NCBI RefSeq assembly: GCF_040739495.1
Contig: NZ_CP145263.1
Location: 186,001 to 250,000, forward strand
Reading direction: 5' to 3'
Length of the DNA: 64,000 bases
DNA from: Staphylococcus capitis subsp. capitis
GTDB lineage: Bacteria; Bacillota; Bacilli; Staphylococcales; Staphylococcaceae
Part shown: one piece after another, positions 18,381-35,079 of the stretch
How the letters are laid out: every line of letters starts with the position of its first letter
Position numbering within the stretch: position 1 is the stretch's first letter
Translations under genes and position numbers: made by a program
The notes under the pieces: model-generated
The model's database searches: none
Told to the model about the DNA's origin: nothing
The model's input: only the letters and a program-made list of their open reading frames with translations

Positions 18381-18388
18381 TATACTAA

Positions 18389-18423
18389 AATCCCTCGAAT
18401 TGTAAGGTTCAATTCGAGGGATT
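18389..18423. terminator. Bidirectional terminator
   Basis: AATCCCTCGAATTG (18389-18402) is perfectly complementary to CAATTCGAGGGATT (18410-18423). It has A and T runs on its two sides and lies between convergent genes. Confidence 0.85.
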
Positions 18424-18447
18424 ATTTTAGTTATAAGCAATGCTTAT

Positions 18448-19383
18448 TTAAGGATGGCTAATAATTAGCTCCATGTTTCCATTAAACTGAATTGCTTTAT
18501 CTTCTGTAGTTAAAATAAAATGCGTACCTTTTTGAACAGTGAATGTTTCGTCATCAACTGTTAATTGACCATCACCCTCAATAACTGAAACTAAGCAATA
18601 CGGATGAGGTTTCGTTAAAGTTAGATGTTCAGAAATATCCCATTTCTCTACTGTGAAGAACGTATTCGACACATACAGCGTATAAGTGTTACCATCAATC
18701 GCTTTAGTATGTGGAGAAGTATTCGGCTGTCGATTAGAAATATCGATAACCTCTTTACTTTGTTCTAAATGTAATTCACGTGTGTTGCCATTTTTATCTT
18801 TTCTATCGTAATCATAAATACGATATGTGGTATCAGAAGATTGCTGTGTCTCTAAGATGAGGATGCCTGAACCTATCGCATGTACTGTACCAGCAGGAAC
18901 ATAATAGAAGTCGCCAGGTTGAACTGGAACATGAGTAAATAAATGGTCGAAGTCTTTATTATCAATGAGTTGTTCTAATTCTTCTTTTGTTTGTGCTTCT
19001 ACACCATAGATGATTTCTGAGCCAGGTTCTGCATCAAGAATATACCAACACTCTGTCTTACCATATTCACCTTCATGTTTAAGTGCATAGTCATCATTAG
19101 GATGAACCTGTACTGAAAGTTGATCATGAGCGTCTAGAATTTTAGTTAGAAGCGGGAAGTGCGTTCTAGAATCGTTATCGAACAACGCACGATCTTCTTC
19201 CCATACCTCATCTAACGTCTTACCTTGATGTTTGCCATTTTCAATGACATTAGGTCCGTTCTGATGTGCTGAAATAGCCCAACATTCGCCAGTTTGATCA
19301 CTTGGAATATCGTAACCAAACTGAGTTAAAGCATTGCCACCCCAAATGCGCTCTTGAAATACAGGCTTAAGAAACAATACCAT
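18448..19383 (-). CDS. manA: Mannose-6-phosphate isomerase, class I
   Basis: The 311-aa enzyme interconverts mannose-6-phosphate and fructose-6-phosphate with Zn2+ in the cytosol. The family signature is visible as FQERIWGG at the N-terminus, QVHPNDDYALKHEGEYGKTECWY in the metal site (His and Glu ligands), and a C-terminal cupin half. It lies 13 nt after fruA on the same strand, so the sugar PTS and the isomerase form one operon that probably ends at the bidirectional terminator at 18389. Confidence 0.95.
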   Translation of the reverse strand: MVLFLKPVFQERIWGGNALTQFGYDIPSDQTGECWAISAHQNGPNVIENGKHQGKTLDEVWEEDRALFDNDSRTHFPLLTKILDAHDQLSVQVHPNDDYALKHEGEYGKTECWYILDAEPGSEIIYGVEAQTKEELEQLIDNKDFDHLFTHVPVQPGDFYYVPAGTVHAIGSGILILETQQSSDTTYRIYDYDRKDKNGNTRELHLEQSKEVIDISNRQPNTSPHTKAIDGNTYTLYVSNTFFTVEKWDISEHLTLTKPHPYCLVSVIEGDGQLTVDDETFTVQKGTHFILTTEDKAIQFNGNMELIISHP

Positions 19384-19396
19384 ATCTTACACTCCT

Positions 19397-21373
19397 TTAT
19401 ATCTCTTTTAAAATGTTGTAGATTTCATTTTTATCTTGAGCATGCACGAGGTTGTCTCTTGTATCATTATGCATTAAAGCTTTTGATAAGCGTTGTAACA
19501 ATCTTAAGTGCGTATCATTACTGTCATTAGGCACAGCGATAAGGAAGACCAATTGCGGTAATGAACCATCAAGACTTTCCCACTGAATGCCCTTTCTATT
19601 TTGCATAACTGCTACGGCAGGTTGATTGACTGCACTTGATTTCGCATGAGGAATCGCCACATTCATACCAATGGCAGTAGTTGACTCTGCTTCTCGCTTA
19701 AGAATAGCTTCTTTAACTTCTTCAACATCAGAGATATAGTGATGTTCATTTAATTTAGAAATGAGCGTATCAATCGCATTGTCACGCGTAAGTTCAGTAT
19801 TTGATATTTCAATAATATTCTCGGCAAATACTTCATGTTCTTTACTTTCATTTGTAGGCTCACTTTGTGGAGCAGTCGTTGCTACATTACTTTGTGTTGT
19901 TGTGTCATTTGCTGATGTAGAATCATTTTCAAGGGTAGGGTCAGTCTCGTGTGCATTCACTTCATTCGCAGGTGTATGTCTCTTGAAAATTAAAACCGTC
20001 ATCATTGTGACTAAACTACCGATAATGACAGCGATAAAGAACCAAAGGACCTTATCAATACCGCCAAGTACTGCTACAACTGGGCCACCATGAGCTACTC
20101 TATCTCCAACACCTCCCAGCGCGGCGATGACAGATGCTACCATAGCACCAATCATATTAGCTGGAATCGTTCTAAGTGGGTCTTGTGCAGCGAAAGGTAT
20201 CGCACCTTCAGTGATACCGAAGAGACCCATTGTAAATGAGGCTTTACCCATTTCTTGTTCAGCTTTGTTAAACTTACGTTTTTGAATAAATGTTGCTAAG
20301 CCTAAACCGATTGGAGGCGTACATACTGCTACAGCAACCATTCCCATCACTGCATAGTTACCTTCAGCAATTAATGCAGAACCGAAGAGAAAGGCAACTT
20401 TGTTAATCGGACCACCCATATCGAAGGCAATCATAGCGCCGATAATCAACGCTAGAATAATAATGTTAGCGCCTTGCATACCTTTTAACCATGTCGTCAA
20501 TGCAGCAAAGATACTTGAAATCGGAGCGCCAATGACAAAGATAAATATCAGTCCCACTATCAGTGAAGAAATAATAGGTATGATAATAATTGGCATAATC
20601 GGTGCCATCGCTTTAGGAACTTTAATTTGTTTAATCCATTTAGCGATATAACCAGCTAAGAAACCGGCAACAATACCACCTAAGAAACCAGCACCTGCAG
20701 TACTGCCATAGAGACTTCCGTCAGCAGCGATAGCTCCACCAATCATACCTGGAACAAGTCCGGGTTTATCAGCAATACTTACGGCAATATAACCGGCTAG
20801 GATTGGAACCATAAATTTAAAAGATAAGCTTCCAATATTTTCAATTGATTTCCAGAATGAATGCTCTGGAATGACGAGGCCTTTAGAAGTCGCTTCGCCA
20901 CCTATAGTTAAAGCAATGGCCATCAGCAATCCGCCTACAACGATGAATGGCACCATGAAAGAGACACCATTCATTAAGTGTTGATAGACCATTTGCATGC
21001 CACTTTTATGTTCATTATCTTCTTCAGAATTGTGGCTGTGAGTTTCTGAATCATTTCCATGATAGATACGGGCGTCTTGATCAATGATACGTTGAATTAA
21101 TAGTTTTGGATGATGGATACCTTCACGCACGTTCTCATTAATGAGGCGTTTACCATTAAAACGTGAAAGATCAACTTGTCTATCAGCGGCAATAATGATG
21201 CCATCTGCTTCTTTAATTTCCTTGGCAGTTAAAATGTTTTCAGCACCTACACCGCCTTGCGTTTCAACTTTGATATCTACGCCCATTTCCTTAGCAGCTT
21301 GTTCTAATTTTTCTTGAGCCATATATGTATGAGCGATACCGTTCGGACATGATGTTATAGCAAGTATTTTCAT
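19397..21373 (-). CDS. fruA: Fructose-family PTS transporter, EIIBCA fused
   Basis: About 658 aa. The N-terminal EIIB domain carries the phospho-Cys in ITSCPNGIAHTYMA (Cys9). The central EIIC domain (about 115-460) has nine or so helices, including the GGPINKVAF segment. The C-terminal EIIA domain (about 515-658) has the phospho-His in NVAIPHAKSS. It imports and phosphorylates fructose or mannose. The ATG at 21373 fits the AAGGAG site better than the GTG at 21382. A perfect catabolite-response element lies just upstream, the regulator gene precedes it and manA follows. Confidence 0.93.
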   Translation of the reverse strand: MKILAITSCPNGIAHTYMAQEKLEQAAKEMGVDIKVETQGGVGAENILTAKEIKEADGIIIAADRQVDLSRFNGKRLINENVREGIHHPKLLIQRIIDQDARIYHGNDSETHSHNSEEDNEHKSGMQMVYQHLMNGVSFMVPFIVVGGLLMAIALTIGGEATSKGLVIPEHSFWKSIENIGSLSFKFMVPILAGYIAVSIADKPGLVPGMIGGAIAADGSLYGSTAGAGFLGGIVAGFLAGYIAKWIKQIKVPKAMAPIMPIIIIPIISSLIVGLIFIFVIGAPISSIFAALTTWLKGMQGANIIILALIIGAMIAFDMGGPINKVAFLFGSALIAEGNYAVMGMVAVAVCTPPIGLGLATFIQKRKFNKAEQEMGKASFTMGLFGITEGAIPFAAQDPLRTIPANMIGAMVASVIAALGGVGDRVAHGGPVVAVLGGIDKVLWFFIAVIIGSLVTMMTVLIFKRHTPANEVNAHETDPTLENDSTSANDTTTQSNVATTAPQSEPTNESKEHEVFAENIIEISNTELTRDNAIDTLISKLNEHHYISDVEEVKEAILKREAESTTAIGMNVAIPHAKSSAVNQPAVAVMQNRKGIQWESLDGSLPQLVFLIAVPNDSNDTHLRLLQRLSKALMHNDTRDNLVHAQDKNEIYNILKEI

Positions 21374-21398
21374 CGCTTTCACTCTCCTTTATTTAAAG

Positions 21399-21412
21399 TG
21401 TAAGCGTATTCA
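21399..21412. promoter_or_regulatory. Catabolite-response element (cre) upstream of fruA
   Basis: TGTAAGCGTATTCA matches the CcpA consensus TGNAARCGNWWWCA at every position. It lies 26 nt before the fruA start, a position where bound CcpA would block transcription when preferred sugars are present. Confidence 0.75.
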
Positions 21413-21452
21413 ATACTGTATAAAAAAGAATAATTGCCGTTATTAGTGGCAA

Positions 21453-23330
21453 TTATTCTCGAATTTGAGCGATTAACTTATTTTTCATGACTTGGTTATC
21501 CATCAGACACCACTGATCAACCGTATGTTCATCAAGTTGAGCCAGTGACTGAATCATATTTTTCATCATTTGTGCATCTTTCTTCGCAATCGCTAGGAAG
21601 AACACTAACTTCACATCATGTTGTTTCCATGGAATGGGGTGTTTGAATTTATAGACAATCACATGAGATTTCAGCACCTTCTCAGGATTACCGTGAGGAA
21701 TCGCCATACCATTGCCTATGAAAGTTGAAGACTGACGTTCGCGTTCCATCGCAGATTCAATGTAACCGTCTAAAGTCGCTTGATGCTGTTCTAGAATCTC
21801 TTGAGTTCTCTTAAAGATTGAGAGTGCAATGGAAGGTTCATCTTGTTCGATGTCGGACTCAACCACAAATTCTATTGGTGACAGGGCATCTCTTTGTAAC
21901 GTTGGATTTTTAAACGTTTTAATTACATGTTCAACTTGGCGTTCATCATCTTTCGAAAATAATGGCGACACCTGAATCACTTTCGGAAGGTGTGATGAAC
22001 GTTTGTGACTTAAGTTGATATCATGCGTCGTGATGAGCATATCCACTTGCGCAAAGTCATAAGTTTCAACATCTTCAAGTTTCAATGTATCAACAATTGA
22101 TATTGAAGGACTTAATTTCTTAATTCTTTCAGCTAATAAAGTTGAAACCCCTAAGCCGTAATAGCACACAATGACAACGTTAATGGTCGAGTGCATTTGT
22201 CGTTCAATTGATGATTGAAAATGGATCGTCAAAAAGGCAATTTCATCTTCGCTAAGTTGTATGTCAGTGTCTTTAGATAACTGATGAATCACATCGTAAA
22301 GCGTGTTAAAGATAAAAGGATAGAGTTGTTTGATTTCAGATGTCAGCGGATTGTTGAGGTAAACATTGCGCATCAATCGTAAGTAGGTACGACTAAAGTG
22401 CATATAAATATTTTCTTTTAGAATTGAATCTTTAGAAAAAAGAATATCTACATTCGTTTCCATCAATTGTATTAACCGTTGAATATAACTTTGAATAAAG
22501 AGTTGTTGGAAGCTTAAATCAAATTGATTGAAATGATAACTAATGAAGAATGAAAACAATTGACTCGTTTCATCAGTCAGCTGGTAACCTAGTTGTTGAT
22601 TAATATCTTTAATACACTGTCGTGCTATGGCTAGTGAAGTTGGATTCGACTCCCAATCTAACTCCTCAGAGTTAGTACGCTTGATAATTAAGATTAAATG
22701 CACAAGTAATTGTCGCACTTGATTATCTGACGTTTGAAGCTCGGAAGCTTGAATATGTTTCTTAATAATATGATGAATACGCTGAATATGTCCCTGTGGT
22801 AATTCTTGGAGAATCAAATCTTCTACCTTAATTTCATTCGAAGAGAGTTGATTCAGATGAAGAACCGCATTACTTAAATCCGAACCACTAGCATCGATAA
22901 TGATGCCTTGTTTCCTTTTCAAAGTGATGGTGACATCAAATTTTTCACACCAAGTTTGGATACGTGTGACACAATCGAGTACATCTGACTTTGATAGATG
23001 AAACTGTGATGCAAGATCACTCAAAGTATATGTATGATGATCCATCAATAATTTATAAGCAATCGTAATTAATAACTTTCTCTCTTTAAGAATACTGTCA
23101 TTTAATTGTCCCTCAATATAACTAATAGAATATGTATCTAAATTTAATTGATAACCTCTAGATTTAACACTCACTATAAGATTATCAATAAATGTAGAAT
23201 TAATAACTTTAATATCATTCCTAACTGTGCGATTAGACACATTTAAATAAGCCGAAACTTTATTCCCGCTAACGTACGTTTGAGCGTTATTGATTAAGAG
23301 TTGAATGAGTTTAATCTGTCTGTATATCAT
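21453..23330 (-). CDS. PRD-containing transcriptional regulator with EIIB and EIIA domains (MtlR/LicR-like)
   Basis: The product, about 625 aa, starts with two winged-helix regions (NVSNRTVRNDIKVIN at the N-terminus). PRD regulatory domains follow (His residues in FLTIHFQSSIERQ and others), then an EIIB-like stretch with CYYGLGVSTLLAERI and a C-terminal EIIA-like domain with AIPHGNPEKVL. Such proteins activate the neighbouring PTS operon and are themselves controlled by PTS phosphorylation. The start is uncertain: the ATG at 23330 is taken because the protein then begins MIYRQIKLIQLL, but an in-frame GTG at 23342 is possible. It lies upstream of fruA. Confidence 0.85.
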   Translation of the reverse strand: MIYRQIKLIQLLINNAQTYVSGNKVSAYLNVSNRTVRNDIKVINSTFIDNLIVSVKSRGYQLNLDTYSISYIEGQLNDSILKERKLLITIAYKLLMDHHTYTLSDLASQFHLSKSDVLDCVTRIQTWCEKFDVTITLKRKQGIIIDASGSDLSNAVLHLNQLSSNEIKVEDLILQELPQGHIQRIHHIIKKHIQASELQTSDNQVRQLLVHLILIIKRTNSEELDWESNPTSLAIARQCIKDINQQLGYQLTDETSQLFSFFISYHFNQFDLSFQQLFIQSYIQRLIQLMETNVDILFSKDSILKENIYMHFSRTYLRLMRNVYLNNPLTSEIKQLYPFIFNTLYDVIHQLSKDTDIQLSEDEIAFLTIHFQSSIERQMHSTINVVIVCYYGLGVSTLLAERIKKLSPSISIVDTLKLEDVETYDFAQVDMLITTHDINLSHKRSSHLPKVIQVSPLFSKDDERQVEHVIKTFKNPTLQRDALSPIEFVVESDIEQDEPSIALSIFKRTQEILEQHQATLDGYIESAMERERQSSTFIGNGMAIPHGNPEKVLKSHVIVYKFKHPIPWKQHDVKLVFFLAIAKKDAQMMKNMIQSLAQLDEHTVDQWCLMDNQVMKNKLIAQIRE

Positions 23331-23456
23331 AGTCCATCTCACTTCTCCCACAAAGTTTGTTTAGGAAAACGCTTACTCCACAATCAAAGTTTACTTGTTA
23401 GCGAGGAGATAGGCAAGTGGCAGGGTGAATTAAAACATTTATATAAATTATATTAA

Positions 23457-23488
23457 ACTCCCCAAACCACGGTGATAGTTAGGGGAGT
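23457..23488 (-). terminator. Hairpin after the carbamoyltransferase-like gene
   Basis: ACTCCCC (23457-23463) pairs with GGGGAGT (23482-23488), extended by AAC/GTT. The T run on the minus strand is weak, so termination is probable but not certain. Confidence 0.55.
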
Positions 23489-23587
23489 GATGTATAATTG
23501 TATACATGCTATTTTTATTAATTAATTGAATTTTTAATTCTAAAGGGCAAACTTCTTAAGAAATATTATTAAATTATTACTTTTGTA

Positions 23588-23601
23588 AGGAAACGTTTTC
23601 A
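23588..23601. promoter_or_regulatory. cre-like site
   Basis: AGGAAACGTTTTCA matches 13 of 14 positions of the CcpA consensus. It lies between the carbamoyltransferase-like gene and the PTS regulator gene, about 260 nt before the latter. A role in control of the regulator is possible. Confidence 0.35.
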
Positions 23602-23639
23602 AGTTTTCTTTACTTTTATTTAAATATTTGAAATGCACT

Positions 23640-24572
23640 TTAGTTGTCGTATTTCATAAAGTAATACAATAGAGACATTCTTATTAGCATGCCATTATAT
23701 GCTTGTTTAGTAAATATCACATTGCTCATACCATCTGTATCTGAGGAAAGTTCGTCCTCTCTTGGACCAGGACTTAAAACGGGGATAGTATTTTTATTAT
23801 TAAATTTATCTTTAGATACAATTAGATTATTTGGTAACTGAGGTTTATTATCCACTTTTTCAGAATAAGCAGAATTAAAATCAGGCAATTCAAAAGGGAT
23901 TATATCCAATATATCGGCTTGTTCTAATATTCTTTCTACATTATGAACTATAGAATAATTAGTGTTCCTTAATAAGTGTAATATATCACTATTCAATTCT
24001 TCGCCATTCGGTAAAAGGAAGATAATTTTTTTAATATCAAATTTTTCTAATCCCATAACTATAGAACGAATTACTCTACAATTAATATCTCCACCTATAC
24101 CTATAATCTTATTATCTAAACCACCTAATTCCTTAGTCATTGTATATAAATCTAGTAAGGCTTGTGTCGGATGTTCGTTTGTACCATCACCCGCATTAAT
24201 CATAGGTATGTTAGTAATATTGGACGCTTTTTCGACTGCGAAGTTTTCATAATGACGCATAACCATTGCATTTGAATATTGAGAGATATATTTAATAGTA
24301 TCTGCCATACTTTCATCAAAGTAATCATCGGTACGTGCTACCTTTGGACCTCCCATATCTATAACTTGACCACCTAACCTAAACATAGCACTAGCAAAAC
24401 TCATTCTAGTTCTCGTACTAGGTTGATAAAATAAGGTTGCTAAAACTTTTCCATTCAAATCTTTGATAATTTTGTTATTTTTCAAGGCTCTTTCATAGCG
24501 ATTAGCTTGTTCAAATAAGTTATTAATAAAATTTAAGTTTATATCATTCATTGATAATAAATTACCAATCAA
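23640..24572 (-). CDS. Aspartate/ornithine carbamoyltransferase-family protein, atypical active site
   Basis: The 310-aa protein has both carbamoyltransferase domains. The carbamoyl-phosphate loop STRTR (52-56) and the HPTQ motif (134-137) are intact, and GGDINCRVIRS corresponds to the DxxxSRV segment. Two catalytic features differ from aspartate carbamoyltransferase: the KKGETLADT loop is YFDESMADT (86-92), so the lysine equivalent to E. coli Lys84 is Phe, and the HPLPR loop is SPGPRED. It is thus unlikely to be pyrB and may carbamoylate another amine. It begins at TTG after GAGAGG, overlapping the stop of the ThiF-like gene, so the two are translationally coupled. It is not near other pyrimidine genes. 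Confidence 0.8.
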   Translation of the reverse strand: MIGNLLSMNDINLNFINNLFEQANRYERALKNNKIIKDLNGKVLATLFYQPSTRTRMSFASAMFRLGGQVIDMGGPKVARTDDYFDESMADTIKYISQYSNAMVMRHYENFAVEKASNITNIPMINAGDGTNEHPTQALLDLYTMTKELGGLDNKIIGIGGDINCRVIRSIVMGLEKFDIKKIIFLLPNGEELNSDILHLLRNTNYSIVHNVERILEQADILDIIPFELPDFNSAYSEKVDNKPQLPNNLIVSKDKFNNKNTIPVLSPGPREDELSSDTDGMSNVIFTKQAYNGMLIRMSLLYYFMKYDN

Positions 24573-25444
24573 TTTTATTCGCCTCTCTTTCTATAACTTT
24601 AGTTTTCCAAGAGGCTGAATCAAACATAGAATAACTAGGTGTTGTAGGTAGTTCTTTATATTCAGGGATATTTTTTAAATCTACTATTTCAAAACTCAGT
24701 CTTTCTACTAGAAGACCTTGTGCTAGAGGGGTCAACCAGCAAAAATGGGACATTCTTTATTATGAATCAACCATTCATCTAATTTTTCTTTGGATGGAAA
24801 TTGGGGATACTTAGGAAATAGGGAATAAACAATTTTTCTTGTATTATGTTCATCTAACTTTGAGCCGGGTTTGATATTGAAATAGTCTTTTGCAGACATA
24901 GAATCTTTGGTCCATTTAAAAAAGAAGGCTCTATGACCAAACACGGGGACTGTTAACATGAATTTACAACGGCTATGGGTTTTAAAAGCGTCATGTAATG
25001 CATAACGAGCTTCCAACTCAAACAATTCTATTTTATCTAAAACATAATCACAACCTTCTACAAATTCATCAGCAGTATTATCGTTGATGCCTTCAGGGAA
25101 AATATCAACATTAACATCTCTAGAAATATTAAATATAGATTCTCCAACAACTTCAGCTTTATTTTTACCGATGGTGCTGAGGGAAGCGCCATACTGTCTA
25201 TTAATATTAGAAAGGTCGAAATAATCAGGATCGGCAATTTTTATATGCCGTACGCCTAATCTCACTAGTCTCTCAGCTACAGCACCTCCTATACCTCCAC
25301 AACCTGCTATACCAATTACAACATTGCTGATTTTTTTCTGACGTTCTTTAGTGTATTTCCTAGCCAACCTAAATTTCGTTTAACTCTTTCCCAATAACGT
25401 TGTTCATCGAATTCAGCAGTGTACTTAATAACTTTAGACTTCAT
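24562..25444 (-). pseudogene. ThiF/MoeB/HesA E1-like adenylyltransferase, two frameshifts
   Basis: Three overlapping frames join into one protein of about 294 aa. The N-terminus (from ATG 25444, SD GGGAGG) reads MKSKVIKYTAEFDEQRYWER and continues after a frame change near 25370. The middle part carries the E1 nucleotide site AGCGGIGG, the acidic DPDYFDLSNINRQ motif and IGKNKAEVV. After a second one-base loss near 24745 the C-terminus (TPLAQGLLVERL to the end at NKIDW) resumes. E1-like enzymes adenylate carboxyl groups of small proteins or metabolites, as MccB does for microcin C. As read, the ATP-binding core is open for 211 codons but both ends are out of frame. It overlaps the downstream carbamoyltransferase-like gene. 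Confidence 0.75.
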
Positions 25445-25552
25445 AATGAACCTCCCAAAAATAAGTAATTGCTAATACTAGGTCTCAAGGAAAAATTGAA
25501 ATATAAGTAATCATATAACTTCTTGCTTTGTCAAAAGCTTTCATTTTACTTA

Positions 25553-26230
25553 TCAATTCGTATTCATATCTAAATGAGTTTTAAAAGATTTTTCTCCCTT
25601 TTTAGTTATCCTAAGACATCGATTTATTTCACATTTTTGGATCCAAGACAATTCAAATAATTTTTTTGTAATCTCTAAAGCAATAGGTCCGGCTATATGG
25701 TGTTTTCTTTCAGTCCAATCTATATGTTTAATAATAGGTTTAGAATATAGTTTATTATCTGTTTCTAATCCTAGACATTTCAACCAAGCTTTTCCACTTT
25801 CAGTTAATTTATAATATTCTTCACAATCTTCCATATAACCCTTTTCTAATAATGATTCCGTAAATTTAACACCCATTTTTCCAGCAATATGACCATAACA
25901 GGTCCTCATAAATGATAACTTTCTCTTTTTAGTTGTTTCTTTCAAAGACTTACTTTCCATAGATGGTGATATTATGGCTAATGCATTTATAGCATCTATA
26001 ACCTTCTCATCAGTTATTTTGTAATAGCGATGTCTTCCCCACTTTTCTACAGTAATTAGGTTAGCCTCTATTAATTTAGAAAGATGATCACTAGCAGTTT
26101 GAGGTTTCACATTAGCTAATTTAGCCAATTCACCAGCTGGGAGTGCTTTACCACTAGATAATTCTATTAACATTGTCAAACGTGTTTGATGTCCAATAAG
26201 TAGAATGTTATTAGCAAACTTTTTATACAT
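25553..26230 (-). CDS. ArsR-type winged-helix transcriptional regulator
   Basis: The 225-aa protein has an ArsR-type helix-turn-helix at residues about 12-80 (AGELAKLANVKPQTASDHLSKL, wing WGRHRYYKIT). A C-terminal domain of about 130 residues has several Cys and His, possibly for ligand sensing. It is longer than classical metal-sensing ArsR proteins. It is divergent from the MFS exporter and lies upstream of the ThiF-like/carbamoyltransferase-like pair on the same strand, so it could control both directions. A long palindrome lies in the divergent promoter region. Confidence 0.82.
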   Translation of the reverse strand: MYKKFANNILLIGHQTRLTMLIELSSGKALPAGELAKLANVKPQTASDHLSKLIEANLITVEKWGRHRYYKITDEKVIDAINALAIISPSMESKSLKETTKKRKLSFMRTCYGHIAGKMGVKFTESLLEKGYMEDCEEYYKLTESGKAWLKCLGLETDNKLYSKPIIKHIDWTERKHHIAGPIALEITKKLFELSWIQKCEINRCLRITKKGEKSFKTHLDMNTN

Positions 26231-26262
26231 ATATTCACCTTCTCTATTTATATTATTATTCT

Positions 26263-26308
26263 ATACCCATAAAATATTTCGGTGTTAAGCGAAATTTTAT
26301 GTGGGTAT
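26263..26308. promoter_or_regulatory. Long palindromic operator between divergent regulator and exporter
   Basis: The left arm, ATACCCATAAAATATTTCG, and the right arm, CGAAATTTTATGTGGGTAT, are reverse complements apart from small indels. The spacer is 8 nt. It lies centrally between the two divergent starts and is the likely binding site of the ArsR-type regulator. Confidence 0.65.
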
Positions 26309-26340
26309 GAATAAATTAGTTAGATAGGGAGGTATTATAG

Positions 26341-27723
26341 TTGAACATTTCTTCTAAATATTTTGATTATTTAGTTGTTTTTACCGCAGGCATAGGAATG
26401 TTTTTATCTACCTTAGATAGTGGAATTATTAACGTAGCATTACCTACTTTATCAAAATCATTTAATGTTGATACATCATTGATAACATGGAGTGTCACTT
26501 TATATACTTTATTATTGACGGGAACGATTATCATATTTGGAAGATTGAGTGACAAATATAGTCGAATAAATATCTATAGTATTGGGCTTATTGTGTTTTT
26601 AATAGCTTCAATTTTATGTGGTTTTTCAAGTAATGTTATCCAATTGATCACATTTCGAGGTTTACAAGGTATAGGAGCAGCAATGTTGCAAGGCACTGCC
26701 ACTGCTATTATTACAACTAGTATTCCTGAAGATAGACAAGGATCGGCCCTAGGAACGCTAAGTATACTTTTAGGAATAGGACCAGTTTTAGGACCTAGTG
26801 TAGGAGGGAGTTTACTCTCTTTAGGAAGTTGGAGATGGATATTTTGGATGAATATTCCCTTTATCGTAGTAGGGTTAGTTGGTTGTTTAATATTGAAGAG
26901 AAATATTAAAGAAAATAGAAGTACATCTATTCACCTAGATTTGCGAGGAAATATATTGTTATTTCTATCTATATTTTGTTTATTAATCAGTCTAACTGCA
27001 TGGTCTCATAATTCTATTAAAAGTTTACTCGTTTATGGGAATTTAATAACTTTTATCATACTATTTAGTTTGTTTGTAGTATGGGAATTAAAAAATAGTC
27101 ATCCAATCATAGATTTACGCATGTTTAAAAATATATCTTTTTCTTCTCCTATTTTTGCGATATTTGTTTTTGGCGGTACGACCTCTCTAGGATTTATCGT
27201 TCCACCGTACATATTAGAGAAAGCTAACCATCTCGGTTCATGGCAAGTGGGCTTAGTTAATTTAGCATCTCCTTTAGGCTTAGTCATTGTTTCAAAACTT
27301 GCCGGAAAGTTGATATCTCGTTTAGGAAGTACCATATTAATGGTGATTGGATTAATTATAATGACTATTGCTTATACAAGTTTAGGAGGCTTCCAATTTA
27401 TTTTAAGTCCAATAGCATTAAGTCTATTATTACTACTATATGGTTTAGGAGGTGGATTCTTTCTTCCTTCTAATACTTCAGCAATTATGGGCTCCGTTTC
27501 TCAAGATATGCAAGGTACAGTAGGAGCAGCTCAAAGAATGGTTCAAAATATAGGTATTGCTATTTATACAGCTATAACTTCATTATTTATTAATAACTTC
27601 TCAAGTTCTAATAAACTAATAGCAGGGGCTAGTGAAGCGTGGTTATTTGCAGCTGCATCTTTATTTATAGCACTACTCCCTTTCTTATTAAAAATCTTAC
27701 GAACCAAACAACGTGCTGAATAA
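26341..27723 (+). CDS. MFS multidrug-type exporter, DHA2/14-helix (EmrB/QacA) family
   Basis: The 460-aa protein has about fourteen membrane helices. Family motifs are visible: LDSGIINVALPTLSKS in helix 1 (motif D), GRLSDKYSRINIYSIG between helices 2 and 3 (motif A), and GIGPVLGPSVGG in helix 5 (motif C, typical of antiporters). It exports drugs or a small metabolite using the proton gradient. It starts at TTG, 9-10 nt after AGGGAGG. The divergent ArsR-type gene and the adjacent ThiF-like/carbamoyltransferase-like genes suggest it exports the product of that pair or protects from a related toxin; this is inference. Confidence 0.88.
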   Translation: MNISSKYFDYLVVFTAGIGMFLSTLDSGIINVALPTLSKSFNVDTSLITWSVTLYTLLLTGTIIIFGRLSDKYSRINIYSIGLIVFLIASILCGFSSNVIQLITFRGLQGIGAAMLQGTATAIITTSIPEDRQGSALGTLSILLGIGPVLGPSVGGSLLSLGSWRWIFWMNIPFIVVGLVGCLILKRNIKENRSTSIHLDLRGNILLFLSIFCLLISLTAWSHNSIKSLLVYGNLITFIILFSLFVVWELKNSHPIIDLRMFKNISFSSPIFAIFVFGGTTSLGFIVPPYILEKANHLGSWQVGLVNLASPLGLVIVSKLAGKLISRLGSTILMVIGLIIMTIAYTSLGGFQFILSPIALSLLLLLYGLGGGFFLPSNTSAIMGSVSQDMQGTVGAAQRMVQNIGIAIYTAITSLFINNFSSSNKLIAGASEAWLFAAASLFIALLPFLLKILRTKQRAE

Positions 27724-27761
27724 AAGATATTCTAATTTAAAATGATCTATTAAAAGATTTC

Positions 27762-27813
27762 TTGCACTCATAACAGTTTTTTCATTAATAATTGTTATGT
27801 GTGCAATTTTTGT
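27762..27813 (+). terminator. Terminator after the MFS gene
   Basis: TTGCACTCATAACA (27762-27775) pairs with TGTTATGTGTGCAA (27793-27806), followed by TTTTTG. Confidence 0.8.
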
Positions 27814-27881
27814 TTTTCACTATATATTGACCCAAGTAAATATGATATATTTTAATTAAATTATTTATATTGGGTGATAGT

Positions 27882-30695
27882 ATGGGGTATCAAAGCGAAC
27901 AAGCTCTAGAAGAAGATGTAATTAAACAATTAGTGAGTCAAGGATACGAGAGAGTTCAAGTACGTGATCACGCACAGCTAGTCGATAATTTCCGCTCAAT
28001 TCTAAACGAACGTAATGCTGATAAACTTGAAGGGAAGCCATTATCAGATGCGGAATTTCGTAGAATTATGATAGATATTAGCGATAAAAGTATATTTGAC
28101 AGTGCCATGATATTAAGGGATAAGTATGTTCTTGAACGTGATGATGAGACGAAAGTATATCTGAGTTTTATGGACACGTTAAAGTGGTGTAAGAATAAAT
28201 TCCAAGTAACGAACCAAGTTTCTGTTGAAGATACATATAAAAGTCGTTATGATGTGACGATTCTTATCAATGGTTTGCCTCTTGTTCAAATTGAGTTAAA
28301 AAGAAGTGGTATCGCTATTGCTCAAGCATTTAATCAAATTGAACGATATCGTAAATTTAATTACACAGGTCTGTTTAGATTCATTCAACTCTTCGTTATT
28401 AGTAATAAGATGGAAACACGTTACTACGCAAATAGCGACCAAAGAATTTTTAAGAGTGCGATGTTTTATTGGAGCGATAAAAATAATCAACGTATCAATA
28501 ACCTGAAAGATTTTGTTGAAGATTTTCTTAGCCCATGCAAACTTGCTAAAATGATTAGTCGCTACATGATTATTAATGAAACGGATAAAGTGCTTATGGC
28601 GCTTAGACCTTATCAAGTTTACGCAGTTGAGGCACTAATTAAACGTGCGACAGAGACGAATAATAATGGCTATATTTGGCATACGACAGGAAGCGGTAAA
28701 ACGTTAACTTCGTTCAAGACGAGTCAGATTCTCTCTAGGGAACCTAATATCAATAAAGTCATCTTCTTAGTCGACCGTAAGGATTTAGATAGTCAAACGC
28801 TTGCTGAATTTAATAAATTTGAAAATAACTCTGTCGACCTTACAGACAATACACGTAAATTACTTCAACAGTTAGACGACCCTACTTAGAACCTTATCGT
28901 AACGACGATACAAAAGATGGCAAATGCAATTAAAACAGGACACAAAGCGATTGAACGTTATAAAGAAGATAAAGTAGTATTCATTATCGATGAGTGTCAT
29001 CGTACACAGTTTGGTGATATGCATCGTGTGATCAAACAACATTTTAAGAACGCGCAATACTTTGGATTCACAGGTACACCACGTTTTGAAGAGAATGCGA
29101 GTCAAGACGGACGTGCGACGGCGGATATATTCGGGAAATGCCTCCATACTTACCTTATTAAAGATGCGATTCGTGATGGCAATGTACTAGGATTCTCTGT
29201 TGAATACCTCAATACATTTGATACATTGAAGGACAATATTGATGAAGAATATGTTTCTAAGATAGATGAGAATGAGATTTGGATGGCTGACGACCGTCTT
29301 AAGAAAGTAGCTAAACATCTTGTCGCAAACCATCACAAGAAGACGCGTAATCAGATGTATACTTCCATTTTTACTGTTCATAGCATACCGATGGCGATTA
29401 GATATTATAAAATCTTCAAAGAGATGAAAGAAGCAGGTTTACACAACCTCAATGTTTCTACAATTTTCACTTATAATCCTAATGAAGATATGCATAAAAA
29501 TAGAGAAGTGTATCAACAAAATGAAAATCCTAAGCATTCACGTGAAGAGTTAGAAACAGTAATTAAAGATTATAATAAAATGTTTGATAAAAATTATTCT
29601 ACAGATACTTTTGATGGATTCTTTAATGATGTTTCTCAGCGAGTGAAACGAGGCATGCCAGGTGAACGATTAGATATTTTAATTGTTGTCGATATGTTCT
29701 TAACAGGCTTCGATAGTAAAAAGTTAAATACGTTATATGTTGATAGAAATTTACAATACCATACATTAATTCAAGCTTATTCTCGTACGAATCGAGTTGA
29801 AGATGAGACCAAACCTTATGGCAACATTGTGTGTTATCGTAATTTGAAAGAGAATACAGATAAAGCAATCGAGTTATTCTCACAAACAGATGATGTAGAC
29901 ACGGTATTGAGTGCATCATTTGATGAGTATTTAGTTGAGTTTAAAAAGCAATTAATAGAGTTGTATAAAGTTGCAGATACGCCAGAAGCAGTAGACCGAT
30001 TAGAACGTGAAGATGATATTAAAGAGTTTGTATTAACTTTCCGTAGTTTGTCACGTTTAATGCAAATGCTAAAAACGTTTGACGAATTTAGCTTTGACAA
30101 GGATAAACTCGGCATAGCTCAGCAAACTTTTCAAGATTACAGAGGTAAATATCTTAATTTATATGATGCTGTGCGTCAGAAAAATAAAAGAGAGATAAAC
30201 AAAGTCTCTGTTTTAGATGATATTGACTTCGAAGTCGAGATATTAAGAAATGATTTGATTAATGTTCAATATATTCTAGATTTATTGAACCAGATTGATT
30301 TAACGAATAAAGAAGAACCAGATAAAGCATGTAAGCAGATACGTAAGTTACTTGAACAAGCAGATGATGATAAATTAAGACTGAAGGCAGACTTAATTCG
30401 CGAGTTCTTAGATAGTGTGATTCCACATCTTGAAGAGGAAATAGCGATTGATGATGCATATTATGAGTTTGAAGAGGAAGTCAAAGAAGGAGAGTTACAA
30501 GATTTCGCCAAAGATCAAACCTATCCAATTGATTTATTAAAACAGCTTGTCAGTGAATATGAGTACAGCGGACAATTAGATAATAATTTAGTTGAAGAGG
30601 GTGTCTCTGGTGGCTTACTCGTACGTACTAAGAAAATTGATAATGTTAAATCCTTCGTCCAAGAAACCGTTGAAAAATATGGTGCCGTTGATTAA
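27882..30695 (+). pseudogene. hsdR: Type I restriction endonuclease subunit HsdR, single nonsense codon
   Basis: One frame of 938 codons is interrupted only by TAG at 28887-28889, probably from CAG or a similar codon. Before the stop are the nuclease domain ([20 protein letters not shown], with the Asp and the ExK pair) and helicase motif I (TTGSGKT). After it come motif II (DECH) and the remaining translocase motifs and C-terminal helical domain. HsdR cuts unmethylated DNA together with HsdM and HsdS. As read, the truncated 335-residue product cannot translocate, and restriction should be lost. The ATG at 27882 is preferred to an upstream TTG because it lies just after GGGTGA. Confidence 0.9.
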
Positions 30696-30834
30696 TCAGA
30701 GTAAAGTTTTATATGACTTTAATGACGATGCTTTTAAAAGGGACTAGGGCGAGCCACGGTTTAGATAATTATCCTGCTCCCTTGGAAGTCGTGCGTTAGA
30801 TTTTATATCTAGTAAAATATTCTATAAAAACTGT

Positions 30835-30869
30835 AAGTTAGGTGGATGTTCCCACTTAACTTATTTTAT
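30835..30869 (+). terminator. Hairpin between hsdR and hsdM
   Basis: AAGTTAGGTGG (30835-30845) pairs with CCCACTTAACTT (30851-30862), followed by TTATTTTATTTTG. It probably separates the hsdR and hsdMS transcripts. The rest of the 260-nt gap shows no gene. Confidence 0.6.
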
Positions 30870-30955
30870 TTTGTGCTATAAAATTATAAATAAAAGACAA
30901 AATAAGTGGACAACTATTTATTTATAGATTTTGTACTAAATGGAGGGAACGTACA

Positions 30956-32512
30956 TTGACTACATCTGAGAAGCAACGTCAACAACAAGCAGAACTACAA
31001 AAGAAATTATGGTCCATTGCGAATGACTTACGTGGGAATATGGACGCCAATGAATTTAAAAATTACATTTTAGGCCTTATCTTTTACCGTTTCTTGAGTG
31101 AGAAGGTTGAAGAGACATCCGCAAGACTTCTTGCAGAAGATAATATTACATATTCAGAAGCAATGAATAATGAGGACTATCGTCCTATTGTTGAGAAAGA
31201 ATTAATTCAACGTATTGGTTTCGTCATTGAACCGGAAAATTTATTTAGTAATTTAAAAGCTAAAATTGAAAACCAGACATTTGAAATTGAAGACTTAAGC
31301 AATGCGATTAAAAATGTTGAGAACTCTACACGTGGTCACGAGAGTGAAGATGACTTTATTCATTTATTCGATGACATGGATTTGAACTCCAGCCGATTAG
31401 GGAATACGAATGCAGCTCGTACGAAATTAATTGGGAAAGTCATGATGAATATTTCTACATTACCATTCGTGCATAGTGATTTAGAAATCGATATGTTAGG
31501 CGATGCGTACGAATACCTTATTGGTCAATTCGCGGCTAACGCGGGTAAAAAGGCTGGTGAATTCTATACACCTCAACAAGTATCAACGATACTTGCGAAG
31601 ATCGTTACAGATGGTAAGGAAGATTTAAGAAGTGTGTATGACCCGACATGTGGTTCTGGCTCATTACTATTACGTGTAGGTCGTGAAGCTAAAGTACGTA
31701 ACTATTATGGTCAAGAATACAATAGTACAACTTATAACTTAGCTCGAATGAACATGTTACTTCACGATGTGAACTTTAAAGCCTTCCAAATTGAAAATGG
31801 CGGTACATTAGAAGATCCAGCGCATCGAGGCGAACAATTTGATGCGGTAGTCGCAAACCCACCATACAGTGCGAAGTGGAGTGCTGAACCTTCATTCTTA
31901 GATGATGAACGTTTTAGTGATTACGGCAAACTTGCACCTAAATCTAAAGCAGACTTTGCATTTATTCAACATATGATTTATCACTTAGATGATGAGGGGA
32001 CAATGGCAGTTGTTCTTCCACACGGTGTTCTATTCCGTGGCGCAGCCGAAGGCACAATTCGTAAATATTTAATCGAAGAGAAGAATTATTTAGACGCCGT
32101 GATAGGCTTACCTGCCAACTTGTTCTTTGGGACAAGTATTCCAACGTGTGTCCTAGTCTTTAAGAAGTGTCGTAAAGCAGATGATGACGTAGTATTTATC
32201 GATGCGTCTCAATCATTTGAAAAAGGTAAAAACCAAAACCACCTTACAGATGAAGATGTAGAAAAAATTGTCGAAACATACAGCAAAAGAGAGACAATAG
32301 ATAAATACAGTTACGTCGCAAGTTTAGATGAAATTAAAGAAAATGATTACAATCTTAATATTCCTAGATATGTAGATACATTTGAAGAAGAAGAGCCGAT
32401 TGACTTAGACCAAGTCCAACAACAACTCAAAGATATTGATAAAGAAATCGCCAACGTAGAGTCAGAAATCAACGAATACCTTAAAGAACTAGGAGTGTTG
32501 AACAATGACTGA
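30956..32512 (+). CDS. hsdM: Type I DNA adenine methyltransferase subunit HsdM
   Basis: The 518-aa protein has an N-terminal HsdM helical domain (about 10-150), the SAM-binding motif DPTCGSGSLLL, and the catalytic motif ANPPYS (N6-adenine type), followed by a C-terminal domain that binds HsdS. It starts at TTG, 8-9 nt after TGGAGGG. It overlaps hsdS by 8 nt (ATGACTGA), indicating coupled translation. It is intact, but its specificity subunit is frameshifted and HsdR is interrupted, so methylation at the original site is also doubtful. Confidence 0.95.
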   Translation: MTTSEKQRQQQAELQKKLWSIANDLRGNMDANEFKNYILGLIFYRFLSEKVEETSARLLAEDNITYSEAMNNEDYRPIVEKELIQRIGFVIEPENLFSNLKAKIENQTFEIEDLSNAIKNVENSTRGHESEDDFIHLFDDMDLNSSRLGNTNAARTKLIGKVMMNISTLPFVHSDLEIDMLGDAYEYLIGQFAANAGKKAGEFYTPQQVSTILAKIVTDGKEDLRSVYDPTCGSGSLLLRVGREAKVRNYYGQEYNSTTYNLARMNMLLHDVNFKAFQIENGGTLEDPAHRGEQFDAVVANPPYSAKWSAEPSFLDDERFSDYGKLAPKSKADFAFIQHMIYHLDDEGTMAVVLPHGVLFRGAAEGTIRKYLIEEKNYLDAVIGLPANLFFGTSIPTCVLVFKKCRKADDDVVFIDASQSFEKGKNQNHLTDEDVEKIVETYSKRETIDKYSYVASLDEIKENDYNLNIPRYVDTFEEEEPIDLDQVQQQLKDIDKEIANVESEINEYLKELGVLNND

Positions 32513-33712
32513 ACAAAATACTCCAGAATTAAGATTTCCAGGAATTAATGATAGATGGGAGAGTAGTACGTTAAATCAAATTACATCTATATTAAAAGAT
32601 GGCACGCATGGCACTCATAAAGATAGTAAAGAAGGACCTTGGTTGCTAAGTGCTAAAAATTTAAAAAATAATAAAATATCTATAAATGAAGATGATAGAA
32701 AGATTAGTAAAGTAGATTTTGATCGCATATATAAAAATTACAATTTAAAAAGAGGAGATTTGCTTTTATCAATAGTTGGTACTATAGGGAACGTAGCAAT
32801 TGTAAAAGACCCTGAAAATATTGCTTTTCAAAGAAGTGTAGCAATACTAAGAATGAGAAATGAGTTTGAAATAAATTTAAAAAGAATTTATTTCAAACTC
32901 ATTCTTTTAAGAAAAAACTCAAACGAAATCAAGTAGTATCAGCACAACCAGGTATATATCTAGGTGATTTAGGAAAATTTCAAATTAAATTCCCTTTAAA
33001 TTTAAAAGAACAAAATAAAATTGGAAATTTCTTTAGCAAACTCGACCGCCAGATTGAGTTAGAAGAAGAGAAGCTTGAATTATTAGAAAAACAAAACCAT
33101 TCTTATATAAATCAGATTTTTACAAAACAATTAAAATTTAATGATGATGAAGGTAATAAATATCCTGAATGGATAACTAAGAAGTTAGGGGATATTGGTA
33201 AAGTAGCTATGAATAAACGTATATACAAAAATGAAACAACTGAGAGTGGTGAAATACCTTTTTATAAAATAGGGAACTTTGGAAAGAGTGCTGATACATT
33301 TATAACTAGAGAAAAGTTTAATGAATATAAAGAGAAATATCCTTACCCTAATGTTGGTGATATATTAATATCAGCATCAGGAAGTATTGGTAGAACCATA
33401 GAATATACAGGGGAAGATGCATACTATCAGGATTCAAACATTGTTTGGCTAGATCATAATGATGAAGTCCTAAATAAATATTTAAAATACTTCTATAAAA
33501 TTGTTAAATGGGCAGGAATTGAAGGAACAACTATTAAAAGGTTGTACAATAAAAATATCTTAAATACTAAAATTGAATTGCCAAATATAGAAGAACAAGA
33601 AAAAATAGGAGAATTTTTAACTAAATATGAAGAATTAATTAAAAAACAATCTTCAAAAGTCGAATTGTTAAAGCAACGCAAGCAAGGATTATTACAGAAG
33701 ATGTTCGTCTAA
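32505..33712 (+). pseudogene. hsdS: Type I specificity subunit HsdS, frameshifted in the first target domain
   Basis: HsdS sets the recognition sequence through two target recognition domains (TRDs) with conserved helices between and after them. The first frame (32505-32936) covers most of TRD1. From about 32905 the true sequence continues in another frame without interruption through KLKRNQVVSAQPG, the central helix (IGNFFSKLDRQIELEEEK), TRD2, and the terminal helix (IGEFLTKYEELIKKQ) to 33712. The break coincides with a 19-bp perfect inverted repeat (32859-32903). Repaired length is about 402 aa, normal for the family. Confidence 0.88.
32859..32903. repeat. 19-bp perfect inverted repeat inside hsdS
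   Basis: AATGAGTTTGAAATAAATT (32859-32877) is exactly reverse-complementary to 32885-32903, with a 7-nt loop TAAAAAG. The reading frame of hsdS is lost across it, so it looks like a local inverted duplication (template switch) rather than a natural part of the gene. Confidence 0.85.
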
Positions 33713-33740
33713 TTCTGATAAAGTCCTATTATGTTAAGTA

Positions 33741-33773
33741 AAAAAGAGAGATCGTATTTTCTCTCTTTTTTTA
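33741..33773 (+). terminator. Terminator after hsdS
   Basis: AAAAAGAGAGA (33741-33751) pairs with TCTCTCTTTTT (33760-33770), followed by more T. Confidence 0.8.
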
Positions 33774-33866
33774 TCTTATTTTCAAATTTCATATAATAGA
33801 TTATTAACATGTGTTTTAGGACGATGTAAAAAGTACTCATTTGCATTGAAGCAAAGTTTATTAAAC

Positions 33867-34126
33867 CTAATCATTATCGTGTTTAATTCTATAAATAGTA
33901 TGTCTTATTATATTAACTTCTTTCTAAACAATCAATCGATTTTATCATAAACCAATCGACTATTTACACAAAGCTAAGCGCTTCTTGAAACACTGGTCTA
34001 TTTTCAATTGATTTCCCATACTGTTTTTCTGTAAATATTTTTTTCAACACCAAATTTTTTTAAAATTTTAAGGTGCCTTTCTAAATTTTGGGAGATAGAT
34101 GATACTCTCGTATAGCCAATAATCAT
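33867..34126 (-). pseudogene. Relic of Sin-type serine recombinase (resolvase)
   Basis: From ATG 34126 (SD AGGTGA) the minus strand reads [20 protein letters not shown], which matches the N-terminus of staphylococcal Sin resolvase, including the catalytic Ser in RVSS. A frame change then gives [22 protein letters not shown]. After stops and a large internal deletion the last helix of the DNA-binding domain survives as TIYRIKHDN. The catalytic core from about residue 70 and most of the helix-turn-helix are gone. Sin genes are carried on staphylococcal plasmids and transposons, so this marks past mobile-element activity beside the restriction genes. Confidence 0.75.
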
Positions 34127-34228
34127 TATTTTTCACCTGTAATTAACGTACATCTTAACCGTTCAATTAGATTGTTACAATTTCAACAATTCTTTTGTAT
34201 GTTTAGGGTGTACCTATTTTATACATTT

Positions 34229-34653
34229 TCAGCTTTTTTTATTTCTTTTTTTCATTTTAAAAGCTTTGTAACCTTGAACTTGACTTAACACTATGCCTAG
34301 TATTACTCCTATAGTTACTATATATATGATGGACTGTAAATAATGGTTTTTCACAATATTTCCTACATAATCTAAAAATGTGAAAGCTGTTGCAAAGTCA
34401 ATTATACTCTTTATAAAATCATGAGAGTATTCGTATTCCTTTTTATATTTAACTTAGAAAAAGGTGAAAAAAGTATATAATGATTTCAATCCCACCCCTA
34501 AAAAAACGTTATAATTATAGGTATTAATGTACTTACCTTTTCTTCTTTTAAGAAATTCGTTAAGTTAAAAATTACGATTAAATATAAATTACTAATTAAA
34601 GCCACACTCACAAAAATAATATTAAGTAGTTGCATATATGTTTTATCTTTCAT
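34229..34653 (-). pseudogene. Broken membrane protein of unknown function, about 140 residues
   Basis: ATG 34653 follows AAGGTGAAG. The product begins MKDKTYMQLLNIIFVSVALI and has two helices, then meets a stop after a run of seven T (34499-34505). One extra T restores the frame (ITFFLGVGLKSLYTFFTFF), but an in-frame TAA follows near 34455. The last part (VKYKKEYEYSHDF to the lysine-rich end at 34229) has a further hydrophobic segment, IIYIVTIGVILGIVL. It therefore carries at least two lesions. No family was recognised. Confidence 0.5.
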
Positions 34654-34700
34654 TTCTTCACCTTCTAAAATTATTTTAGTATTATTGATAATTTTACTTT

Positions 34701-34730
34701 TTGCATTTCTCCACTGACCAGTGTTATAAT
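34701..34730 (+). promoter_or_regulatory. Promoter of the antitoxin RNA
   Basis: TTGCAT (34701-34706) and TATAAT (34725-34730) with 18-nt spacing point right. Transcription would start near 34737 and run 60-65 nt into the terminator at 34765-34801. Confidence 0.6.
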
Positions 34731-34736
34731 TTAAAT

Positions 34737-34801
34737 AACGAAAATAAGTATTCACTTATACACCAATCCCCCCACTACTCGCAATAGTGAGGGGATTTTT
34801 G
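34737..34801 (+). ncRNA. Antisense antitoxin RNA (par RNAII-like)
   Basis: A short RNA of about 65 nt is predicted from its promoter and terminator. It carries a near copy (22 of 28 positions) of the plus-strand sequence that covers the toxin ribosome site and start codon (34899-34926), in two conserved blocks, AACGAAAATAAG and TATACACC. It can therefore pair with the toxin mRNA over its translation start and again over the shared terminator. This is the known arrangement of direct repeats a and b in the par locus of Enterococcus plasmid pAD1. Confidence 0.7.
34765..34801. terminator. Shared bidirectional terminator of toxin and antitoxin
   Basis: AATCCCCCCACTA (34765-34777) pairs with TAGTGAGGGGATT (34785-34797), with T runs outward on both strands. 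The two convergent RNAs end here, as in par/Fst loci. Confidence 0.85.
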
Positions 34802-34817
34802 TTGGTGTGGCTATATG

Positions 34818-34913
34818 TCACCTATTTTTATTGCCTTTACTTAGCCAATGAGAAAAAAACGCAATGGCACAGCCACTGATGACTGGTGCTATGATGTGAA
34901 CGAAAATAAGCAT
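34818..34913 (-). CDS. Fst/PepA1-family type I toxin peptide, 31 aa
   Basis: The peptide starts MLIFVHIIAPVISGCAIAFF, continues SHWLSKGNKNR and ends. This is the Fst-family layout: one membrane helix with the IAPVISGC core, a Trp at the end of the helix, and a short positively charged tail. Such peptides insert in the membrane and stop growth when unrepressed. A strong AGGAGG lies upstream; ATG 34913 or the adjacent GTG 34916 may start translation. The mRNA would run from about 34965 to the terminator at 34765, about 200 nt, close to the par RNAI length. A 5' hairpin (CGCCT/AGGCG) precedes the ribosome site. Confidence 0.88.
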   Translation of the reverse strand: MLIFVHIIAPVISGCAIAFFSHWLSKGNKNR

Positions 34914-34926: not shown

Positions 34927-34971
34927 TCCTCTCTACGTCAAATTGACGCCTGAGGGATAGGCGACCTATAT

Positions 34972-35074: not shown

Positions 35075-35079
35075 GTTAG

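Follow-up and report, generated by a model that had tools for sequence, protein, structure and literature searches.

MccB of the microcin C system and PaaA of the pantocin A system are E1-fold enzymes that adenylate a small substrate, and microcin C is exported by a member of the major facilitator superfamily (MFS). Another E1-like enzyme, TcdA/CsdL, is the tRNA ct6A dehydratase; TcdA-type enzymes have been proposed to adenylate the carboxylate of the threonylcarbamoyl group, after which cyclisation follows (PMC13139853). In the indolmycin producer Streptomyces griseus, an auxiliary tryptophanyl-tRNA synthetase (TrpRS) contributes to self-resistance (PMC6804068). The block of genes considered here lies at positions 23,640 to 27,723 of a 64,000-nucleotide stretch, hereafter the window, of Staphylococcus capitis subsp. 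capitis (NZ_CP145263.1, positions 186,001 to 250,000), a contig of chromosome size in a genome of 2.48 Mb. It comprises a DHA2-type MFS exporter and, divergent from it on the minus strand, genes for an ArsR-type regulator, a ThiF/E1-like protein, and a carbamoyltransferase-like protein. At somewhat less than an even chance, we regard this block as a minimal, horizontally moved cassette whose two enzymes would make an exported antimetabolite that probably mimics tryptophan or inhibits TrpRS, and to which the exporter and a second, plasmid-borne TrpRS (TrpRS-II) would provide immunity. No description of the block, or of the trpS–MFS plasmid cassette discussed below, was found in the open-licence PMC literature as judged by titles and the starts of abstracts.

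Intact copies of the block reside on plasmids. Of 72,556 plasmid records searched at the DNA level, 46 matched, 38 of them from Staphylococcus, and ten covered at least 80% of the block, each in one unbroken alignment, which exceeds chance; a protein search with ThiF also gave 46 plasmid records, including 14 from Staphylococcus at 80–90% identity. The carriers include mobilizable MOBV/RepB plasmids of S. epidermidis (8.4–10.4 kb), such a plasmid in triplicate (25 kb), and, in S. pasteuri, a 116-kb plasmid that holds the block twice. In these S. epidermidis and S. pasteuri plasmids, the gene order is that of the window and ThiF is intact; in one intact plasmid copy, its gene overlaps that of the carbamoyltransferase by 8 bp. 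When L006 of S. epidermidis is compared with L007 of S. pasteuri, the ratio of nonsynonymous to synonymous substitution rates (dN/dS) is 0.064 for ThiF, 0.116 for the MFS exporter, and 0.175 for ArsR, and comparison of the window with the plasmid copies gives 0.076–0.078 for the carbamoyltransferase and 0.097–0.103 for the exporter. The block is thus a real, selected, plasmid-borne unit, with ThiF, ArsR, MFS, and the trpS gene of related plasmids under purifying selection. Within the genus, ThiF is rare: of 84 genomes, two have it, namely that of the window and G074, where it takes the form with a formyltransferase. A phage origin was rejected, as only two weak matches were found among 50,697 records searched. 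Three plasmid records (L089, L109, and L094) contain repeats of the whole unit or backbone, which may be true multimers (dimers and trimers) or artefacts that arise when small circular plasmids are assembled.

Many plasmids carry the pump without the ThiF block, and in 13 of the 42 plasmid records that match the region a trpS gene is found directly upstream of the pump (12 are annotated; one, labelled Streptomyces, is unannotated). In S. pasteuri, the flanks of plasmids with carbamoyltransferase–ThiF–ArsR and of plasmids with trpS are 96–98% identical on both sides: positions 5975–8698 of L007, which hold the carbamoyltransferase, ThiF, regulator, and operator, occupy the place of trpS at 5988–7226 of L095, and homology restarts 30 bp upstream of the pump start. 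The right-hand junction in S. epidermidis (L006 compared with L089) is identical to that in S. pasteuri, the L006 pump shares 98.9% identity with the pumps of L089 and L091, and the producer-type plasmid pSE45A5-4 shares a single pump accession (WP_049388105.1) with a trpS plasmid. The TrpRS-II gene thus stands in exchange for the biosynthetic half of the block. The trpS genes are 94.7–99.7% identical to one another; because the pumps split into lineages of about 85% identity, each of which has a producer-type plasmid near it, the exchange involved at least two backgrounds. One 9.3-kb record, attributed to Streptomyces griseorubiginosus (NZ_CP107771.1), is 91% identical to the staphylococcal trpS–MFS region over 99% of the query, and is probably contamination.

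The encoded protein is of the TrpRS-II type (383.8 bits to PDB 2a4m, the Deinococcus TrpRS-II), is 33% identical to the chromosomal TrpRS of the window's genome, and has DQQALT and SQAADI in place of the conserved DQHAIT and LMAADI. Since rival plasmids hold a TrpRS-II gene instead of the biosynthetic half, before the same pump, TrpRS is the likely target, and the simplest reading of the exchange would be that the pump's substrate attacks this enzyme. The parallel with indolmycin is a second TrpRS that protects against a tryptophan analogue (PMC6804068); the staphylococcal case differs in that TrpRS-II replaces the biosynthetic genes on rival plasmids and in that the biosynthetic enzymes are other ones. 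Neither the plasmid location of the intact carriers nor the replacement of the biosynthetic genes by TrpRS-II beside the same exporter had been seen in the first-pass annotation of the window. An exchange produced by chance recombination, with the window block a relic of unrelated metabolic role, would agree with trpS occurring only at staphylococcal plasmids among the loci examined and with the broken state of the window copy described below, but it has to contend with a junction that is common to two backbones on the right-hand side, with the involvement of at least two pump lineages, and with the purifying selection on ThiF, ArsR, MFS, and trpS; we consider it improbable.

The first step of the proposed pathway would be performed by the carbamoyltransferase-like enzyme (23640..24572, minus strand; 310 aa, intact, TTG start), which would carbamoylate the amine of an alpha-amino acid other than aspartate, with carbamoyl phosphate as the donor. 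The window protein matches Pfam OTCace_N (141.7 bits) and OTCace (35.2 bits), and scores 224.7 bits against TIGR00670, the PyrB equivalog of NCBIfam, below its cut-off of 236.95. Alignment to E. coli PyrB covered 11 core rows (the window, L006, L007, L016, L018, L019, L021, L040, P0014, P0017, and P0020), with L015, L017, L020, L022, L042, and the divergent L036, L038, L039, and L044 outside this set. R105, H134, Q137, and R167 are retained in all 11, and the STRT motif (S52–T55) in ten. In contrast, K84 is replaced by F or Y, R229 by P, and L267 by G in every core row, and Q231 by E in nine. Taking the former residues to bind carbamoyl phosphate and the latter aspartate, the enzyme appears to have kept the fold family and carbamoyl-phosphate site of PyrB and to have lost the aspartate site, so that the altered active site reported by the first-pass annotation holds throughout the core set. 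Retention of R167 fits an acceptor with an alpha-carboxylate and without a second carboxylate, and the loops, being aromatic and acidic, are compatible with an amino acid that is neutral or aromatic. The phylogeny that the annotation had called for, a tree of 38 rows that includes L015, L017, L020, and L022, places 15 core rows in one clade (95/93), adjoining the two unassigned relatives P0027 and P0029 and apart from the ordinary PyrB, ArgF, ArgI, and YgeW rows; the carbamoyltransferases from L036, L038, L039, and L044 are not members of this clade.

The E1-like enzyme would then adenylate the carboxylate of the N-carbamoyl acid. The main piece of the window ThiF matches PF00899 with 109 bits, above the Pfam gathering score; two NCBIfam cut-offs are not reached (plasmid ThiF against adenyl_thiF, 78.0 against 275.25 bits; window piece against moeB, 40.9 against 376.55 bits). 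A structure model, made of the homologue P0122 (60% identical) and not of the broken window protein, reached a predicted local distance difference test (pLDDT) score of 95.2; its closest entry is the E1-like AclA (9egb), followed by ThiF, MoeB, PaaA, and MccB, which places the modelled protein in the ThiF/MoeB/E1 superfamily by predicted fold. TcdA is among the best PDB sequence-profile matches of ThiF. Once activated, the N-carbamoyl acid would either cyclise in a hydantoin-type reaction, as with TcdA-type enzymes on t6A, or remain activated; the step is modelled in this way because TcdA-type enzymes have been proposed to adenylate and cyclise a threonylcarbamoyl group (PMC13139853). Both enzymes are E1-like, and the proposed type of substrate, the carboxylate of a carbamoyl-amino acid group, is alike. 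Unlike TcdA/CsdL, which acts on tRNA, the ThiF of the cluster falls under other NCBIfam models, and nothing links it to tRNA modification.

The closeness of the E1 fold to MccB and PaaA, together with an E1 enzyme plus MFS exporter in an mccB–mccC-like arrangement, also raises the possibility of a ribosomally synthesised and post-translationally modified peptide of the microcin C kind, in which ThiF would adenylate a short precursor peptide and the MFS protein would be a MccC-like exporter. However, the gap between regulator and ThiF has no conserved short open reading frame (ORF) in the five staphylococcal sequences checked, and the frequent partner of ThiF is a transferase of the carbamoyl, formyl, or GNAT type; to our knowledge, neither a formyl- nor a carbamoyltransferase is part of the microcin C system. 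We regard a precursor peptide as very improbable.

The ThiF family is wide, with exchangeable TRANSFERASES (one-carbon transferases). An alignment scan of genome contigs with ThiF gave 64 loci, and among the 73 loci with any tblastn match, 18 have the carbamoyltransferase, 20 a formyltransferase, and none both, the remainder having a GNAT-type transferase or none of these. It should be noted that gene calls in the high-GC loci are rough, and statements on them are based on tblastn and family scans. Of the 75 loci that match ThiF, 53 are represented in the ThiF tree, which excludes weak matches, near-duplicates, and fragments. The formyl form constitutes one clade (18 rows, 99/100), and the transferase labels require 6 changes on the tree against a shuffled mean of 28.1; therefore, transferase type and ThiF evolved together, as expected if ThiF acts on the acylated substrate. 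The GNAT label on this tree includes L035 and L037, whose neighbouring gene matches Pfam T_hemolysin, a family we take to be kin to GNAT. The replacement of the carbamoyltransferase by formyl- and GNAT-type transferases in relatives had escaped the first-pass annotation. In the Pseudomonas loci L045–L051 (5900–12840; P. syringae group), ThiF and a GNAT-type gene are accompanied by genes for a phosphoenolpyruvate mutase-like protein, an alpha/beta hydrolase, a transporter (MFS where scanned, in L047), an EctB-type aminotransferase, and a haem-oxygenase-like protein. In L054–L057 (Yoonia, Loktanella, and relatives), no transferase was seen, and ThiF is found with a ketosynthase, a short-chain reductase, a HAD protein, and an alpha/beta hydrolase.

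The neighbourhoods of some relatives look biosynthetic, in agreement with the biosynthetic character first suggested for the locus. In Streptantibioticus L016 and Streptomyces L020, the gene row extends to a flavin adenine dinucleotide-linked oxidase, a flavoprotein, a CreD-like nitrosuccinate lyase, and, directly after CreD, a cyanase. The L016 flavoprotein scores 653 bits to PDB 8cp2, which we infer to be CreE-like, and the best PDB match of the L016 lyase is CreD (451.6 bits; 607.5 bits to NCBIfam NF052556, with a cut-off of 650). In L031, L032, and L043, a CreE/CreD pair follows genes for ThiF, a formyltransferase, a methyltransferase, PGA_cap, and RidA, whereas L033 has only the CreE-like gene and L071 weak pieces. 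In the stretches examined, CreD is present in 2 of the 10 carbamoyl loci and 3 of the 12 formyl loci from actinobacteria; some CreD-like gene occurs anywhere in 14 of the 30 genomes or records searched. Genes for DNA repair make up a second accessory group, with a DNA-3-methyladenine glycosylase downstream of the pump in the lactobacillus loci L010, L014, L025, and L064 (L010 and L025 are one species), glycosylase pieces only in L008, and Ada–AlkA and MGMT genes in Salmonella L011 and Gilliamella L052. L021 encodes a protein that joins haem-oxygenase-like and cupin parts, and L024 has a relative of it at 50% identity; the likeness of the L021 protein to SznF is one of domain order only, and its identification as SznF was rejected, as a PDB search returned cupin matches only. 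Cluster genes of 335 codons (L017, 9863–10870) and 530 codons (L024, 6337–7929) match nothing in Pfam or NCBIfam at the thresholds applied.

These accessory genes suggest reactive products in parts of the family. They could reflect an N–N chemistry in which the substrate activated by the E1-like enzyme is nitrite, or else an acid nitrosated afterwards, and the transferases add N-carbamoyl, N-formyl, or N-acetyl groups to give DNA alkylators resembling nitrosoureas or nitrosamides. The CreD- and CreE-like genes of the five actinobacterial loci (with CreE alone in L033), the haem-oxygenase–cupin proteins, and the DNA-repair genes would fit such a scheme, as would the cyanase, since nitrosoureas release cyanate; in staphylococci, the nitrite would come from nitrate reduction, and the window's genome has an intact NarG. 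However, the cremeomycin-type aspartate–nitrosuccinate pathway, whose CreD- and CreE-like genes occur in some actinobacterial relatives, is absent from the staphylococcal block, no nitrous-acid genes adjoin it, no more than 5 of the 73 matching loci contain CreD, and the TrpRS-II exchange would be left unexplained, so that this alternative looks quite unlikely. The terms ThiF, MoeB, and E1-like do not appear in a review of N–N bond formation (PMC11705231).

The ArsR-type winged-helix regulator (25553..26230, minus strand; 225 aa, intact, with HTH_20/HTH_5 matches) and the DHA2-type exporter (26341..27723, plus strand; 460 aa, intact) diverge over an operator-like inverted repeat at 26263..26308, much as the first-pass annotation described. 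The repeat is imperfect in the window, with perfect arms of at most 6 bp, but perfect in plasmid relatives around an 8-nt spacer (28-bp arms in L006, L007, and L082; 23 bp in L013). The exporter scores 200.2 bits to MFS_1 and 196.7 bits to NCBIfam efflux_EmrB (cut-off 230.2). In the proposed pathway, the regulator would govern both divergent units through the palindrome, and the product would leave by the pump, which would also shield the producer from an attack probably directed at TrpRS. The most specific version of this scheme is that tryptophan and carbamoyl phosphate yield a hydantoin-type mimic of indolmycin that poisons TrpRS, deployed by 8–10 kb plasmids of skin commensals against sister plasmids bearing TrpRS-II, with formyl and GNAT relatives making parallel compounds across phyla; in this full form, we think it unlikely.

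The main rival holds that the two enzymes inactivate a toxin made by others: ThiF and the carbamoyltransferase would modify a TrpRS inhibitor, or some other drug, that enters the cell, the pump would expel it, and TrpRS-II would be an alternative at the level of the target. A regulator and pump divergent over one operator-like repeat are what drug-inducible efflux displays, the two enzyme genes lie downstream of the regulator on the same strand, two kinds of gene swap beside one pump, and the ArsR–MFS pair stands without these enzymes in 5 of 84 genus genomes. Yet two enzymes for a single detoxification would be unusual, and in some actinobacteria the pair is part of more extensive gene groups that also contain nitrous-acid genes, oxidases, and a methyltransferase, as biosynthesis needs. 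We rate resistance as unlikely.

Several observations weigh against an exported TrpRS inhibitor. No TrpRS-II is encoded in the examined stretches of ThiF loci from other genera, so the link is staphylococcal only, and TrpRS-II was found in none of 84 genus genomes at E 1e-80, in a search that had no positive control. At least one plasmid (p1457) carries trpS without the pump, and no T-box precedes trpS at gathering score in L088, L089, L091, L095, or L097; the three matches in that RNA scan of the trpS plasmids, one Fst RNA and two rli28, lie outside the trpS leader. The pump may have a wider role, given the five genomes with an ArsR–MFS pair but no ThiF (regulator orthologues adjoin the exporter in five other genomes of the genus, and one of the five pumps has an internal stop). 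The L006 and L007 carbamoyltransferases differ too little for selection to be judged (dN/dS 0.352, with dS 0.04). Moreover, the nitrous-acid genes of some relatives do not fit a plain hydantoin formation, DNA-alkylation repair in others points to a different target there, and the accessory genes of relatives, taken alone, do not fit a TrpRS inhibitor.

The first-pass annotation had placed all four gene elements correctly and described them accurately throughout. Its proposal of a pathway for a carbamoylated or amidated metabolite with self-export stands in part: co-occurrence of the genes, the separate carbamoyltransferase clade, and the altered site speak for it, and neither of the two outcomes named as refuting it was observed; the window copy is broken, and the carbamoyl group in the product is one we infer. 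In the window, ThiF is divided into an N-terminal piece with an ATG and ribosome-binding site (25362..25444), out of frame with the main piece, a 211-aa ORF with the ATP-binding GxGGxGG motif (24732..25367; 86% identity to plasmid ThiF residues 35–242), and a C-terminal piece in a different frame (24562..24753; 80% identity to residues 238–296), all on the minus strand. Alignment to two plasmid copies locates one small frame-breaking length difference near each end. The break is common to a lineage, because the alleles P0129 (58 member sequences on 1 contig) and P0133 (26 member sequences on 6 contigs) have the same 211-aa remnant, which starts and stops where the window's does but carries other substitutions. 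This common break also rules out assembly error as its cause, though several further window genes look frame-broken. The middle piece retains a dN/dS of 0.065–0.067 against plasmid copies, and the loss therefore looks recent. With ThiF broken, the window copy is defective rather than a working pathway and would confer at most immunity through its regulator and pump.

Retention of the pump after loss or breakage of ThiF or the transferase recurs in S. capitis L013, in lactobacillus L014 and L064 (with the glycosylase), in Corynebacterium L071, and in pSE45A5-4, where the carbamoyltransferase is lost or broken. A pump that outlives biosynthesis would fit the expected remains of a costly toxin with useful immunity, and would also fit a pump with other substrates.

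On the chromosome, the block is flanked by a fructose-type phosphotransferase system on one side and a type I restriction system on the other. Near the restriction genes, at 34780–34873, lies an Fst antitoxin RNA (93.5 bits), a plasmid-type element of a type I toxin–antitoxin system, and a scan of window positions 18000–36000 for RNA families returned nothing beyond it. Genes split into two ORFs in different frames occur at 27870–30695, 41414–42966, 45076–46367, 46590–47499, 49410–50266, and 54503–55651, being by reading hsdR, aureolysin-like, arcA, arcB, arcC, and PGA_cap-like genes, and the pyrB-like match of the genome has an internal stop; these split genes reflect either an indel-prone assembly or many pseudogenes.

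If the proposed cassette is real in function, it would be among the smallest natural-product pathways, carried by mobile plasmids in staphylococci of human skin and of food, and its target would be nominated by a gene exchange. It would also give a testable meaning to the plasmid trpS gene and to the pump annotated as mdeA. The family links E1-like enzymes with carbamoyl- and formyltransferases over Bacillota, Actinomycetota, and Pseudomonadota, and some of its members, found beside nitrous-acid and DNA-repair genes, may hide new N-carbamoyl, N-formyl, or N–N chemistry.

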